Positions 4,172 to 64,000 of a stretch of DNA of 64,000 nt are shown in pieces. The notes below the pieces were generated by a model. The model was not told the DNA's origin and made no database searches. It saw only the letters and a program-made list of their open reading frames with translations. Made by a program: the position numbers and the translations under genes. Origin of the DNA: Xanthobacteraceae bacterium (lineage in GTDB: Bacteria; Pseudomonadota; Alphaproteobacteria; Rhizobiales; Xanthobacteraceae); contig JANINJ010000075.1 in NCBI GenBank assembly GCA_024508855.1, forward strand, positions 103,359-167,358, read 5' to 3'. Within the stretch, counting starts at the first letter, position 1. Each line of letters begins with the position of its first letter.

Positions 4172-4978
4172 TCAGGATGCCGCTACGCGGGGCGAGCGAT
4201 TGCGGGAGTTGCGCTGGAAGAACAATGCCTGGCTGGCAACGGCCGACACCATCGCGGGCTGGAACGGCTTAGAAATCAGGAAGGCCGGCTCCGGCCGTTC
4301 GCCAGTGAGGAAACGCTCGGGATAGGCGGTGATGAACACCACCGGCACCTCGAACACGCGCAGCAACTCGTTCACCGCATCCAGACCCGAACTGCCGTCC
4401 GCGAGCTGAATATCCGCAAGGATCAGTCCTGGCGTCTTGGTCTTGGCCAGCGCTACCGCATCGGTATGGGTGCGCGCGACGCCGATCACGTTGTGACCGA
4501 GATTCTTGACCAGGCTCTCGAGGTCCATCGCGATGAAGGTCTCATCCTCGATGATGAGAACATCGGTGGCGATTTCAGCCGCCATCTCATGGCCGGCCGC
4601 GTCGGCAAGCTTGCGAACTTCTCCAACGTCCACACCCAGGATGAAGGCGACTTCCTCTTCCGAAAATCCCTCCAGCGAAAGCAGGAGGAACGCCTGCCGG
4701 GGCAGCGGCGTTATGTTCGAAAGACGACGCTCTGAAGGAGTGAGACTGGGCACCACTTCGCTTTGTTCGTTGATCGCGACCGAATTCCAGATCTGAGTAA
4801 AGAGCCGGAATAAACCTGCTCTCGGTCCCAGCCGCTCATCGAGCAACGATTGATCCTGCAGCAGCGCCTCAAGCATGGCGCCGACATAGGCATCGCCAGC
4901 GGCCTGATTCCCAGTCAGAGCACGAGAATAGCGCCGCAGCAGCGGCAAGTGTTCAGCAACGAGCTGTGATCGGGACAT
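4172..4978 (-). CDS. phyR: PhyR, general stress response regulator (sigma-mimic response regulator)
   Basis: PhyR is the anti-anti-sigma factor of the alphaproteobacterial general stress response. When phosphorylated it sequesters NepR and frees EcfG. The 268-residue product (start at ATG 4978, MSRSQLVAEH, preceded by AAGGA) has a sigma-like ECF domain at about residues 1-125 (LTPSERRL and SLEGFSEEEVAFILGVDVGEV resemble sigma region 4). A receiver domain follows from about 138, with the acidic pair in IIEDE (142-146), the phospho-acceptor Asp189 in LADIQLADGSSGLDAV and Lys237 in FLISKPF, typical of the FAT GUY receiver family. The frame is open 19 codons further upstream but the family start is here. 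It is divergent from nepR-ecfG, and its promoter region shares a palindrome containing GGAAC. Confidence 0.96.
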   Translation of the reverse strand: MSRSQLVAEHLPLLRRYSRALTGNQAAGDAYVGAMLEALLQDQSLLDERLGPRAGLFRLFTQIWNSVAINEQSEVVPSLTPSERRLSNITPLPRQAFLLLSLEGFSEEEVAFILGVDVGEVRKLADAAGHEMAAEIATDVLIIEDETFIAMDLESLVKNLGHNVIGVARTHTDAVALAKTKTPGLILADIQLADGSSGLDAVNELLRVFEVPVVFITAYPERFLTGERPEPAFLISKPFQPAMVSAVASQALFFQRNSRNRSPRVAAS

Positions 4979-5059
4979 CCCCATTCCATCCTTGTCTGAA
5001 TTCGCGTTGAAGCGGGCAGCCAGCGGCGCCGCCAAATCTAATTACTCACAGCGATGATA

Positions 5060-5100
5060 AAAGTTCCGTTTTTTCGGAACTTTACTCCACCCCCTGCATT
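5060..5100. promoter_or_regulatory. Divergent EcfG-type promoter region with palindromic GGAAC
   Basis: AAAGTTCCG (5060-5068) and CGGAACTTT (5075-5083) are perfect 9-bp inverted arms around TTTTTT, giving a GGAAC -35-type element on each strand. On the plus strand GGAAC (5076-5080) is followed after 16 bases by CATT (5097-5100), one base off the EcfG -10 CGTT. On the minus strand no good -10 is seen. EcfG promoters are GGAAC-N16/17-CGTT in related genera, so autoregulation of nepR-ecfG is inferred. Confidence 0.6.
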
Positions 5101-5179: not shown

Positions 5180-5392
5180 GTGGATCAAGCCATGAAAGAT
5201 GAGAAGCCTCCCGGCAAACCGGCCAAGCCAGGCCGCCTCAATGCGGAAATCCAATCGCGGATCGGCCATCAACTTCGGGCGATGTACGACGACGTTGTGC
5301 GTCAGGGTGTGCCCGACAGATTTGCTGACCTGATCCGAAAGCTGGACACTCCGGAAGGCGAACTGGCTGCCAAAAAAGATGGGAGGGAGTAA
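5180..5392 (+). CDS. nepR: NepR, anti-sigma factor of EcfG
   Basis: NepR is the small anti-sigma factor that holds EcfG inactive until phosphorylated PhyR titrates it away. The 70-residue product has the family core of two helices, with IQSRIGHQLRAMYDDVVRQG followed by VPDRFADLIRKLD, and disordered charged ends rich in Lys and Pro. The start is the GTG at 5180, with GGGGA 4 bases upstream; an ATG at 5192 is an alternative that gives a protein 4 residues shorter. Its stop overlaps the ecfG start (TAATG), so the anti-sigma and sigma factors are translationally coupled, as usual for this locus. It is divergent from phyR. Confidence 0.95.
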   Translation: MDQAMKDEKPPGKPAKPGRLNAEIQSRIGHQLRAMYDDVVRQGVPDRFADLIRKLDTPEGELAAKKDGRE

Positions 5393-5940
5393 TGCCTCTC
5401 ACAGACTCTCTTCGCAACGACATCCTGGCGTCGGTACCTAGCCTGCGCGCTTTTGCGATATCGCTGAGCGGCAACGGCGACCGTGCGGACGATCTCGTTC
5501 AGGAAACGCTGTTGCGCGCGCTTGCCAACATCGACTCGTTCGAGCCCGGCTCGAATCTGCCGGCGTGGCTGTTCACCATCCTGCGAAATCTCTTCCGCTC
5601 CGACTATCGCAAGCGGCGGCGCGAAGTCGAGGATGCCGAAGGCAACTATGCCAAGACGCTGAAGTCGCAGCCGAGCCAGAACGCGCATCTCGAGTTCGAG
5701 GAGTTTCGGGCAGCGCTCGACAAGCTTCCGCAGGATCAGCGCGAAGCCTTGATCCTGGTCGGCGCGTCCGGCTTCTCCTACGAGGATGCTGCGGCGATCT
5801 GCGGATGCGCGGTCGGCACCATCAAGAGTCGCGTCAACCGCGCGCGATCGAAGCTCAGCGCCTTGCTGTACGTGAATGGCGCGGAAGACTTCGGTCCGGA
5901 CGAGACCGTCCGCGCGGTGATCGGCAGCGGCAACCGCTAA
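5392..5940 (+). CDS. ecfG: EcfG, ECF sigma factor of the general stress response
   Basis: EcfG (ECF15-type sigma factor) directs RNA polymerase to general stress promoters of the form GGAAC-N16/17-CGTT. The 182-residue product has sigma region 2 at about residues 12-80 (SGNGDRADDLVQETLLRAL, then PAWLFTILRNLFRSDYRKRR) and sigma region 4 at about 110-160 (LDKLPQDQREALILVGASG and YEDAAAICGCAVGTIKSRVN). The length is normal. The ATG at 5392 uses the last base of the nepR stop, so the two are coupled. A strong hairpin terminator follows. The sodB gene at the other end of the window has an exact match to this sigma factor's promoter. Confidence 0.96.
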   Translation: MPLTDSLRNDILASVPSLRAFAISLSGNGDRADDLVQETLLRALANIDSFEPGSNLPAWLFTILRNLFRSDYRKRRREVEDAEGNYAKTLKSQPSQNAHLEFEEFRAALDKLPQDQREALILVGASGFSYEDAAAICGCAVGTIKSRVNRARSKLSALLYVNGAEDFGPDETVRAVIGSGNR

Positions 5941-55067: not shown

Positions 55068-55394
55068 CTATTTCGATTTCTGTTCGATCGGCGGCGCAGT
55101 TTTCTCGGCGGGTGCCGGCGGCAATGCGGGCTGCGCACCGGCCTTGCGTGCATCTGCGTCCGGACGTGCCGGTTCCGGTGGCGGCGTGGTCGGCCGTGTA
55201 CCGCCCGGCTTCGCTTCGGCGGGCTTGTCGGATACCGGCGGCGCTGCCTGCGACTGCGCCATGGTCATGCCATCGCGATTACCGACGGCCAGTTGGGCGA
55301 GCGAAAAACCGGAGACAACGAGACCGCCCGCAATCAATACGGCCGCGATCCAGAAGTCCGTTCGCGCGGCGCGTTTCCGTGAGTCCGTCAGCAT
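55068..55394 (-). CDS. Small membrane-anchored Pro/Ala-rich protein of unknown function
   Basis: This 108-residue product has one hydrophobic helix near the N-terminus (FWIAAVLIAGGLVVSGFSLA) after a basic start (RKRAARTD), then a low-complexity tail rich in Pro, Ala and Glu (PEPARPDADARK, PPAPAEKTAPP) with a Gly/Arg/Thr stretch. A signal-anchored periplasmic protein is likely. The family is not recognised. It is separated from the MgtC gene by 64 bases on the same strand. Confidence 0.65.
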   Translation of the reverse strand: MLTDSRKRAARTDFWIAAVLIAGGLVVSGFSLAQLAVGNRDGMTMAQSQAAPPVSDKPAEAKPGGTRPTTPPPEPARPDADARKAGAQPALPPAPAEKTAPPIEQKSK

Positions 55395-55458
55395 GAGTCA
55401 CCATTCCTCGTATGACAAAATAACGAGGGCGACTGCCTATGGTTCCGATTGAGTTCGC

Positions 55459-62130: not shown

Positions 62131-62265
62131 CGTCGTCCTTGCGAAGGCAGGGACCCATAACCCCTGACGGTAATGATGCGCAGAGCGGTCATCCGCGAAA
62201 CATCACTACCGCTGCCCGCATCATGCGCGACACGGCGTATGGATCCCCGCCTGCGCGGGGACGAC
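62131..62265 (+). repeat. MITE-like repeat element, copy D
   Basis: A 135-base copy. It begins CGTCGTCCTTGCGAAGGCAG at 62131, continues to GGGACCCATAACCCCTGA, and ends with CGACACGGCGTATGGATCC then CCGCCTGCGCGGGGACGACG at 62265. It shares part of its interior with copy A and has the same orientation. It lies 100 bases from the sodB gene end. Confidence 0.85.
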
Positions 62266-62309
62266 GACAGTGATGCCGCACGGTTGAAATAAACAGAATC
62301 GCAAAATCA

Positions 62310-62338
62310 AAGGGCGGCGACCCTCGGCCGCCGCCCTT
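62310..62338 (-). terminator. Rho-independent terminator of sodB
   Basis: AAGGGCGGCG (62310-62319) and CGCCGCCCTT (62329-62338) form a 10-bp GC-rich stem with a 9-base loop. On the minus strand the tail reads TGATTTTGCGATT. It is 28 bases after the sodB stop. Confidence 0.8.
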
Positions 62339-62365
62339 CTGTCTTATACCGCGTCGAGCGCCGGA

Positions 62366-62962
62366 TCAGGCCTTGCCGAGCAGTTCGTCGACATATTCCC
62401 AGTTCACCAGGTTATCGACGAAGGCCTTCAGATAGTCCGGACGACGGTTGCGATAGTCGATGTAGTAGGAGTGCTCCCAGACGTCGACGCCGAGGATCGG
62501 GGTCGCGCCATGCACCAGCGGGTTCTCGCCGTTCGGCGTCTTCGACACTTCCAGCTTGCCGTTCTTGACCGAAAGCCAGGCCCAGCCCGAACCGAACTGG
62601 CCGGCACCGGCGGCGGCGAAATCGGTCTTGAACTTCTCGAGGCCGCCGAGGTCCTCGTTGATCTTCTTTTCGAGCCGGCCGGGCAGCTTGCTGCCGCCGC
62701 CATTCGGCTTCATCCACTTCCAGAAATAAATGTGATTGTAGTGCTGAGCGGCGTTGTTGAAGAGCGGCACATTCTTGCCGAACGAGCCCTTGACGATCTC
62801 TTCGAGCGATTTGCCCTCGAATTCGGTGCCCTTGAGCAGGTTATTGCCGTTGGTCACATAGGCCTGATGATGCTTGTCGTGGTGAAACTCCAGCGTTTCC
62901 TTGGACATGTAAGGAGCAAGCGCATCATACGCATACGGCAAATCGGGAAGCTTGAAGGTCAT
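62366..62962 (-). CDS. sodB: SodB, iron-type superoxide dismutase
   Basis: This cytoplasmic superoxide dismutase of the Fe/Mn family has 198 residues. Metal ligands by alignment to E. coli SodB are His27 (EFHHDKHHQ), His77 (AQHYNHIYFW), Asp160 and His164 (GVDVWEHSYYIDY). Gln73, before the second His, is the position that carries the solvent-ordering Gln in Fe enzymes, so iron is favoured. The ATG at 62962 begins MTFKLPDLPY, a standard start. An exact EcfG promoter, GGAAC-N16-CGTT, lies upstream, so it is probably a general stress gene. A good terminator follows. Confidence 0.96.
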   Translation of the reverse strand: MTFKLPDLPYAYDALAPYMSKETLEFHHDKHHQAYVTNGNNLLKGTEFEGKSLEEIVKGSFGKNVPLFNNAAQHYNHIYFWKWMKPNGGGSKLPGRLEKKINEDLGGLEKFKTDFAAAGAGQFGSGWAWLSVKNGKLEVSKTPNGENPLVHGATPILGVDVWEHSYYIDYRNRRPDYLKAFVDNLVNWEYVDELLGKA

Positions 62963-62996
62963 GATTTCTGTCCGGACTAGTGTGAGGTAACGGTCT

Positions 62997-63021
62997 AACG
63001 GGAACCTTTATATAAGGTTCC
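62997..63021 (-). promoter_or_regulatory. EcfG (general stress) promoter of sodB with overlapping palindrome
   Basis: On the minus strand, GGAAC (63021-63017), a 16-base spacer, and CGTT (63000-62997) match GGAAC-N16-CGTT exactly. The ATG of sodB is 35 bases beyond CGTT. The -35 lies inside the palindrome GGAACCTT-TATAT-AAGGTTCC (63001-63021). The motif is seen; EcfG use is inferred. Confidence 0.75.
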
Positions 63022-63107
63022 ATCCCGATTAACAGTCAAATGCGGGCGGTCCGGTTTTGCAAATCGGTTGCAAACTTCCGCCCGATACGGCCCGTGCGCA
63101 TGCAAGA

Positions 63108-64000
63108 TCACGCCGGACGCGGCACCGCGCCGGCCGGCTGCGCTGACGGCGGCCGCACGTTCATCAGCATCTGGAATGCTCCGGCAACCAAGCCGATGAT
63201 GACCGCCGCACGCCACGCCACGTCGTAGCTGCCGAGGTGGTCGTAGACCAGTCCGCCGCCCCAGGCGCCGAGGAACGATCCAGCCTGATGGCTGAGAAAG
63301 GCGATTCCGGTCAGCGTTGCCATGAACCGCAGGCCGAACAGTTGCGCCACCAGTCCGTTGACGAGCGGCACAACGCCGAGCCACAGCGCGCCCATCACAG
63401 CGGCAAAAACAAGCGTCGTTGCCGGCGTGGCGGGGAACGAGAAATAGGCGGCGATCGCGATCGAGCGAATGATGTAGACGCCACCCAGCAGGATCTGCTT
63501 CGGAAAACGCCCGCCGAGCCAGCCGAAGGTGTAGGAGCCGATCACGTTGAACAGCCCGATGGTTGCCAGCGCCTCGGCGCCGAGCGCGGGATCGAGACCG
63601 CAGATCTCCAGATAGTTCGGCAGATGCGTAGTGAGGAATACGAGCTGCAGGCCGCAGACGAAGAACGCGATCGACATCACCACGAAACCGGAATGACCGA
63701 GCGCGGTCTGCACCACCGCGCTCAACGGCTGGCTGGTGTCATCGGCCCTGTCGATATCCACCTTGTCGGCATGTCCGGCGAACAAGGCTGCCGGCAACAT
63801 GACGGCCGCGAGACCGAGAAAGCCGACCAGCGCGACCTGCCAGCCAGCATGCGTGATCAGCGTCTGCGCCAGTGGGGATGCAAGGACGAGACCGAGCGAC
63901 CCGGCCGCCGACACCGCTCCCATGGCAACGCTGCGCTTGGCGGCGGATACCACACGCGACGTCACCGTCATCGTCATGCTCGACGCCGTGCAGGACAGCG
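63108..64000 (-). CDS. MFS transporter, N-terminus cut by window edge
   Basis: This is a major facilitator family transporter. The frame is open through the right edge, so the ATG at 63977 is not the true start. The visible part (about 297 residues) lacks roughly the first 100 residues of a usual 400-residue MFS protein. Several helices are seen (GAVSAAGSLGLVLASPLAQT, VALVGFLGLAAVMLPAALFA, and in the second half FVVMSIAFFVCGLQLVFLT, TIGLFNVIGSYTFGWLGGRF and LVFAAVMGALWLGVVPLVNG). A loop GRFPKQIL is MFS-like. The C-terminus is RPPSAQPAGAVPRPA. Substrate is unknown. It is upstream of sodB on the same strand, 145 bases apart. Confidence 0.87.
   Translation of the reverse strand, partial: LSCTASSMTMTVTSRVVSAAKRSVAMGAVSAAGSLGLVLASPLAQTLITHAGWQVALVGFLGLAAVMLPAALFAGHADKVDIDRADDTSQPLSAVVQTALGHSGFVVMSIAFFVCGLQLVFLTTHLPNYLEICGLDPALGAEALATIGLFNVIGSYTFGWLGGRFPKQILLGGVYIIRSIAIAAYFSFPATPATTLVFAAVMGALWLGVVPLVNGLVAQLFGLRFMATLTGIAFLSHQAGSFLGAWGGGLVYDHLGSYDVAWRAAVIIGLVAGAFQMLMNVRPPSAQPAGAVPRPA

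Follow-up and report, generated by a model that had tools for sequence, protein, structure and literature searches.

The window analysed here is a 64,000-nucleotide stretch of DNA from a member of the Xanthobacteraceae, near one end of which lies sodB, a gene for a superoxide dismutase. Scores of 105.5 bits against Pfam Sod_Fe_N and 124 bits against Sod_Fe_C, both above the curated cut-offs, place the protein among the Fe/Mn superoxide dismutases; its best NCBIfam model is that of Fe-SOD, against which it scores below the curated cut-off of that model. sodB is the sole match to its own sequence in the genome (E up to 0.001), and a Cu/Zn superoxide dismutase is encoded at another place. An MFS transporter gene precedes sodB on the same strand and ends 145 bases from it, and downstream of sodB lies a stem-loop that is a likely terminator (−29.5 kcal/mol for 62300–62345, z −5.5); a scan finds two terminator-like sites against 1.2 in shuffles. 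The features at this end of the window are as follows.

62309–62339, minus strand: stem-loop downstream of sodB, likely terminator
62366–62962, minus strand: sodB, Fe/Mn-family superoxide dismutase, 198 aa (Pfam and NCBIfam profiles)
62986–62991, minus strand: expected sodB transcription start region, from the box spacing
62997–63000, minus strand: EcfG-type −10 box CGTT, exact match, 34 nt upstream of the ATG
63001–63021, no strand assigned: exact 21-base inverted repeat (8+5+8), arms GGAACCTT and AAGGTTCC, inward polarity
63008–63019, minus strand: sodB-specific conserved core AACCTTNTATAA (in the window AACCTTATATAA), overlapping the −35 box and spacer, from comparison with relatives
63017–63021, minus strand: EcfG-type −35 box GGAAC, exact match, kept in relatives

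The original prediction placed an exact EcfG-type promoter before sodB, and pattern matching confirms GGAAC-N16-CGTT at 63021–62997 (minus strand). The sequence reads GGAACCTTATATAAAGGTTCCCGTT, with the sodB ATG at 62962, 34 bases further on; both boxes lie on the strand of the gene, with a spacer inside the 16–17 range of the EcfG regulon. A search of the leader for known RNA families (E up to 1) gave six hits, each below its gathering score. Upstream of the promoter stands a separate exact inverted repeat, TTTGCAA-N5-TTGCAAA (63056–63074), which we take to resemble Mur/Fur-type manganese or iron sites.

The same genome carries the cognate EcfG, NepR and PhyR. Their genes are joined at 4.2–7.7 kb by that of a histidine kinase, whose match is below its model cut-off.

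4172–5035, minus strand: phyR, response regulator, above the NCBIfam cut-off (start taken from the ORF list; the true one may be further in)
5060–5083, no strand assigned: phyR–nepR inverted repeat GTTCC..GGAAC, whose −35 boxes face outward, in contrast to the sodB repeat
5192–5392, plus strand: nepR, anti-sigma factor, NepR model E 1.3e-8, below cut-off
5392–5940, plus strand: ecfG, ECF sigma factor, above the NCBIfam cut-off; the name EcfG follows from family and gene neighbourhood

The general-stress sigma factor that had been placed at 5.4 kb is thereby borne out, ORF 5392–5940 passing the cut-off of its own model. Other sites of the same type were also seen. A second exact GGAAC-N16-CGTT lies at 55422–55446 (minus strand), 27 nt upstream of a 108-aa ORF (55068–55394, minus strand) that has no Pfam match and adjoins an MgtC-family gene; this ORF is a candidate for a further EcfG target. 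Four exact EcfG-type sites cluster within 3.2 kb about 3–6 kb left of the window start (G000:C75:97189–100348, or L239:3790–6949), one of them 34 nt upstream of a 123-aa ORF with weak, sub-cut-off matches to DUF883.

As a bare string, the motif is not beyond chance. GGAAC-N15–18-CGTT occurs five times in the window where 2.2 would be expected (at least five in 6 of 100 shuffles), and for GGAAC-N16/17-CGTT the genome total of 82 falls short of the 123 reached by the reversed pattern, so that the bare motif proves nothing. Over-representation in the genome, which is not a defining feature of a single regulon member, was accordingly rejected as evidence. Thirty of 38 sites examined (a sample of 30 of the 82 genome sites, four in the window and four in L239) fall inside mechanically found ORFs of at least 150 aa on either strand; the start-codon filter used for this sample missed sodB itself. 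Because the string alone does not exceed chance, conservation before sodB was examined.

Leaders of sodB were drawn from a family sample (30 rows with loci, 60 added and 20 later added), from a genus resembling Nitrobacter and from named genomes. In a protein tree built from 158 SodB rows, one branch (support 95/85; 98% of bootstrap trees) separates the clade that surrounds the window from all other rows. The clade spans 12 genera, among which we infer ties of g25, g29 and g20 to Bradyrhizobium, Rhodopseudomonas and Nitrobacter; L110, titled Bradyrhizobium, falls outside it. In 30 of 51 clade genomes the 120 nt upstream of the sodB ATG contain an exact site, whose CGTT ends 33–37 nt before the ATG. 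Twelve more have a near match (11 with one base changed and one with two, mostly GAAAC instead of GGAAC), and nine have none. Shuffled leaders contain the exact site in 111 of 102,000 cases (0.11%); here, as in the sigma-70-pair and outside-clade tests below, the shuffles move two-base blocks and dinucleotide counts are not exact.

A further set of 30 genomes (of 40) from a Bradyrhizobium-type genus holds the exact site throughout, with a spacer of 16 bases in 16 genomes and 17 in 14. The set contains 18 different cores, and the bases directly before CGTT vary while both boxes stay constant. Bradyrhizobium BTAi1 (L047) likewise has the site, with a 17-base spacer. By comparison, the 30 bases upstream of GGAAC show nearly free variation (0.0–0.5 bits per column across 44 distinct leaders), and two g45 genomes retain GAAAC-N16-CGTT around an entirely different spacer. 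Part of the conservation of the site is accounted for by common descent. It is nevertheless this retention before the orthologous gene, and not the string, that carries the case for a putative EcfG site. PhyR was found above cut-off in 46 of the 48 clade genomes searched (of 51), which makes its presence uninformative as a predictor of the sodB site. One genome of the window's own genus (G005, 93% complete) has the exact sodB site and no PhyR above cut-off, possibly through an assembly gap.

Seven of the nine clade genomes without a site belong to g20; the other two are G094 and G049. Among the g20 losses GGAAC has become GGAAAC or GAGAAC in five genomes, and CGTT has become CGTC or gone. All seven (7 of 9 in g20) carry a TTGACC-N15-TATGTA block further upstream, which is absent from the two g20 members in which the site survives. 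PhyR is present in all five of the seven that were searched, and the link of sodB to the stress response can therefore be abandoned. The g20 leaders G150, G151, G088, G026, G122, G067 and G106 hold inverted repeats with different arms, which outlast the decayed EcfG boxes.

Sites of this type are also found beyond the clade. Relaxed sites (GGAAC-N16/17-NGTT up to 200 nt before sodB) occur in 14 of 63 family genomes outside it, against 0.32 in shuffles, and include six of six genomes in g35 and four of four in g33, with differing distances and spacers; exact sites occur in four of the 63, against 0.14. The 63 named loci outside the clade, which partly overlap the family sample (identical SodB), have no exact and two relaxed sites. 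Such recurrence suggests that EcfG-like sodB sites were either gained repeatedly or often lost. The leader of the g33 genome G095 (L246) combines two tandem sites upstream of sodB, one of the EcfG type at −112 and one of the sigma-70 type at −69.

Leaders of the sigma-70 type number 0 of 52 inside the clade and 57 of 106 outside, a pattern that was defined after these leaders had been inspected; among 20 held-out leaders, four are of this type and three have an exact EcfG site. The 0/52 versus 57/106 split, together with the clade branch on the tree, had made the replacement of a sigma-70 promoter by an EcfG promoter in one clean step seem likely. That account was rejected: the pattern is post hoc, the held-out leaders yield only 4 of 20 and EcfG-like sites recur outside the clade. 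A wider history is tentative and on balance doubtful. In it, the whole lineage of Bradyrhizobium, Rhodopseudomonas and kin would have exchanged the housekeeping promoter of its cytosolic superoxide dismutase for one read by the general stress sigma factor, the new promoter being a composite of EcfG boxes interleaved with a sodB-specific basal element, and other genera would have done likewise independently.

The yardstick for the sodB promoter comes from phyR and nepR, whose promoters in these genomes have predicted boxes that match those before sodB. Over columns 9–17 the spacer holds 1.13 bits at sodB, against 0.64 at phyR and 0.25 at nepR; the phyR and nepR promoters retain GGAACTTT and the −10 box. 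This comparison covers 20 genomes with 19 rows for each gene (phyR/nepR rows are missing for G052, and a sodB row for G088); in the phyR row of G140 the anchor sits one repeat too early, and the site-less G049 and G067 are among the sodB rows. Strong spacer conservation is thus not general to EcfG promoters, and part of the conservation at sodB must have another cause. The core AACCTTNTATAA occurs exactly once per genome, at sodB, in six of the seven genomes searched, and is absent from the seventh. Its reversed form has only three matches over the seven genomes, which shows that a strict 12-mer is rare in any case. The 12-base core was rejected as a shared operator, having no second occurrence in the six genomes that possess it and none in the seventh. 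There are hints that the sodB-specific core may constitute a second signal within the promoter, and our guess, a weak one, is that CTATAA in the spacer could be a sigma-70 −10 box interleaved with the EcfG boxes.

Carried to its end, this idea would have a housekeeping sigma-70 promoter explain the whole block, with CTATAA as its −10 box and GGAAC..CGTT kept through overlap. Seven of the 51 clade genomes (that of the window not among them) do have a TTG box 17 bases upstream of CTATAA, in a TTG-N17-TATA geometry that encloses the EcfG −35 box as GRAAC, but the other 44 are without a matching −35 box. No consensus sigma-70 site is present in 62250–63250, and under looser criteria roughly half of the leaders show sigma-70-like pairs, most of them no better than those in shuffles. 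The explanation draws further strength from a spacer conserved beyond the needs of an EcfG promoter and from the frequency of sigma-70-type leaders outside the clade (57/106). It does not account for CGTT, which lies downstream of CTATAA and stays while the intervening bases vary, nor for g45, which retains EcfG-like boxes without CTATAA. We regard it as improbable.

The −35 box had also been predicted to lie within a 21-base palindrome, and GGAAC does form one end of the 8+5+8 inverted repeat at 63001–63021; the repeat is real in the window genome, with CGTT just outside it. The accompanying claim that this palindrome is like that of the phyR–nepR promoter fails on polarity, the sodB arms pointing inward and the GTTCC..GGAAC of phyR–nepR outward (one pattern of outward polarity fits 19 of 20 relatives). 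At sodB, the right arm is followed at a distance of 16 or 17 bases by ATCC or TCCC and not by a CGTT that could be a second −10 box, no divergent gene is present for that arm, and the phyR–nepR type of divergent pair, with outward −35 boxes and a gene on each side, is not found.

Could the repeat itself be the functional part, with the sigma boxes as by-products? It might bind a dimeric regulator, or form a hairpin in the leader of an mRNA with a more distant upstream start. Its arms pair better with their native partners than after swapping (in g20, 5 of 5000 swaps; over all 37 distinct leaders, 1 of 5000), although the signal is weak outside g20 (148 of 5000) and template switching between arms can also keep them alike. 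In g20 the repeat is kept after the loss of CGTT, and the TTGACC-N15-TATGTA block lies upstream in seven of nine genomes; perhaps the repeat is functional there. The right arm GGTTCC is often lost, being present in 14 and missing from 16 of the 30 exact clade sites, and present in only 8 of the 30 Bradyrhizobium-type sites (missing from 22). The 12-base core has no second place in six genomes, which argues against a shared operator in that form. We do not read the repeat as the main cause of the conservation of the site, and this explanation as a whole is very unlikely. Least probable is a nine-base match that fell before sodB by chance, since the lack of over-representation in window and genome, which favours it, is outweighed by conservation against a fast-changing flank, by two spacer lengths that keep both boxes and by recurrence in other genera.

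We thus favour transcription of sodB from an EcfG (ECF15) promoter, GGAAC-N16-CGTT at 63021–62997 (minus strand), to which we assign a probability of roughly 0.8 from sequence comparison. Since the exact site is kept before sodB in dozens of relatives, superoxide defence is likely to be under the general stress response. In the known partner switch, PhyR binds NepR under stress and so frees EcfG (PMC8092242). Under stress, PhyR would here draw NepR off EcfG, and the freed EcfG would be the sigma factor that recognizes the sodB site. EcfG–RNA polymerase would then start sodB about 6–11 nt after CGTT (about 62986–62991), so that PhyR signalling would alter the level of SodB, freed EcfG raising superoxide dismutase. 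The conserved spacer, possibly through CTATAA, may give basal sodB expression without stress. The suggested membership of sodB in the EcfG regulon is in this way supported by both boxes being kept before orthologues and by their recurrence in other genera, and it is a well-supported prediction that sodB is a further member of the known regulon with an unusual, sodB-specific spacer.

Should this hold, the one Fe/Mn superoxide dismutase detected in the genome would respond to a multi-stress signal and not to superoxide itself, and among the relatives of Bradyrhizobium and Rhodopseudomonas oxidative defence would be linked with osmotic, heat and symbiotic stress. The sensitivity of a B. diazoefficiens ecfG mutant to NaIO4 does not depend on the trehalose pathway (PMC8092242), and sodB would be a concrete candidate for EcfG-dependent oxidative tolerance outside that pathway. 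Its conserved spacer may also be a useful case for how two signals share one promoter.

In the literature, the EcfG regulon of S. melonis includes two catalases, a peroxiredoxin and ferritin-like proteins (PMC6599016); the word 'superoxide' is absent from the main text of that paper, as it is from the main text of the B. japonicum start-site paper (PMC4842269), whose tables are in supplements outside the scope here. 'Superoxide dismutase' is likewise absent from the passages of PMC3420878. B. japonicum sodF rises with H2O2 (review PMC8226930), and in R. etli the superoxide dismutase passage concerns sodC in a mutant of another regulator (PMC3188799). Within the passages of the EcfG literature covered, no statement of EcfG control of a cytosolic superoxide dismutase was found. 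Neither sodB nor sodF was found as an EcfG target in titles and abstract openings (supplements outside this scope), and novelty is not claimed.

Set beside known EcfG (ECF15) promoters, the sodB site is of the same build, with GGAAC, a spacer of 16 or 17 bases, NGTT and a position about 25–50 nt before the start codon; the motif given for S. melonis is GGAAC-N17–20-GTT (PMC6599016). It differs from the phyR and nepR EcfG promoters of the same genomes in that its spacer sequence is conserved and theirs is not. The divergent phyR–nepR promoters share with it a GGAAC inside an inverted repeat, theirs serving two genes outwards and that of sodB one gene inwards. The sigma-70-type sodB leaders of other Hyphomicrobiales resemble the window in having a TA-rich box upstream of the orthologous gene, and differ in their TTGNC-N17/18-TA..TA pattern. 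The closest functional parallel lies in katC and katG of rhizobia, which are under an EcfG-type sigma factor (review PMC8226930): these are oxidative defence genes like sodB, acting on peroxide under a control that has been experimentally shown, whereas that of sodB, against superoxide, is predicted.
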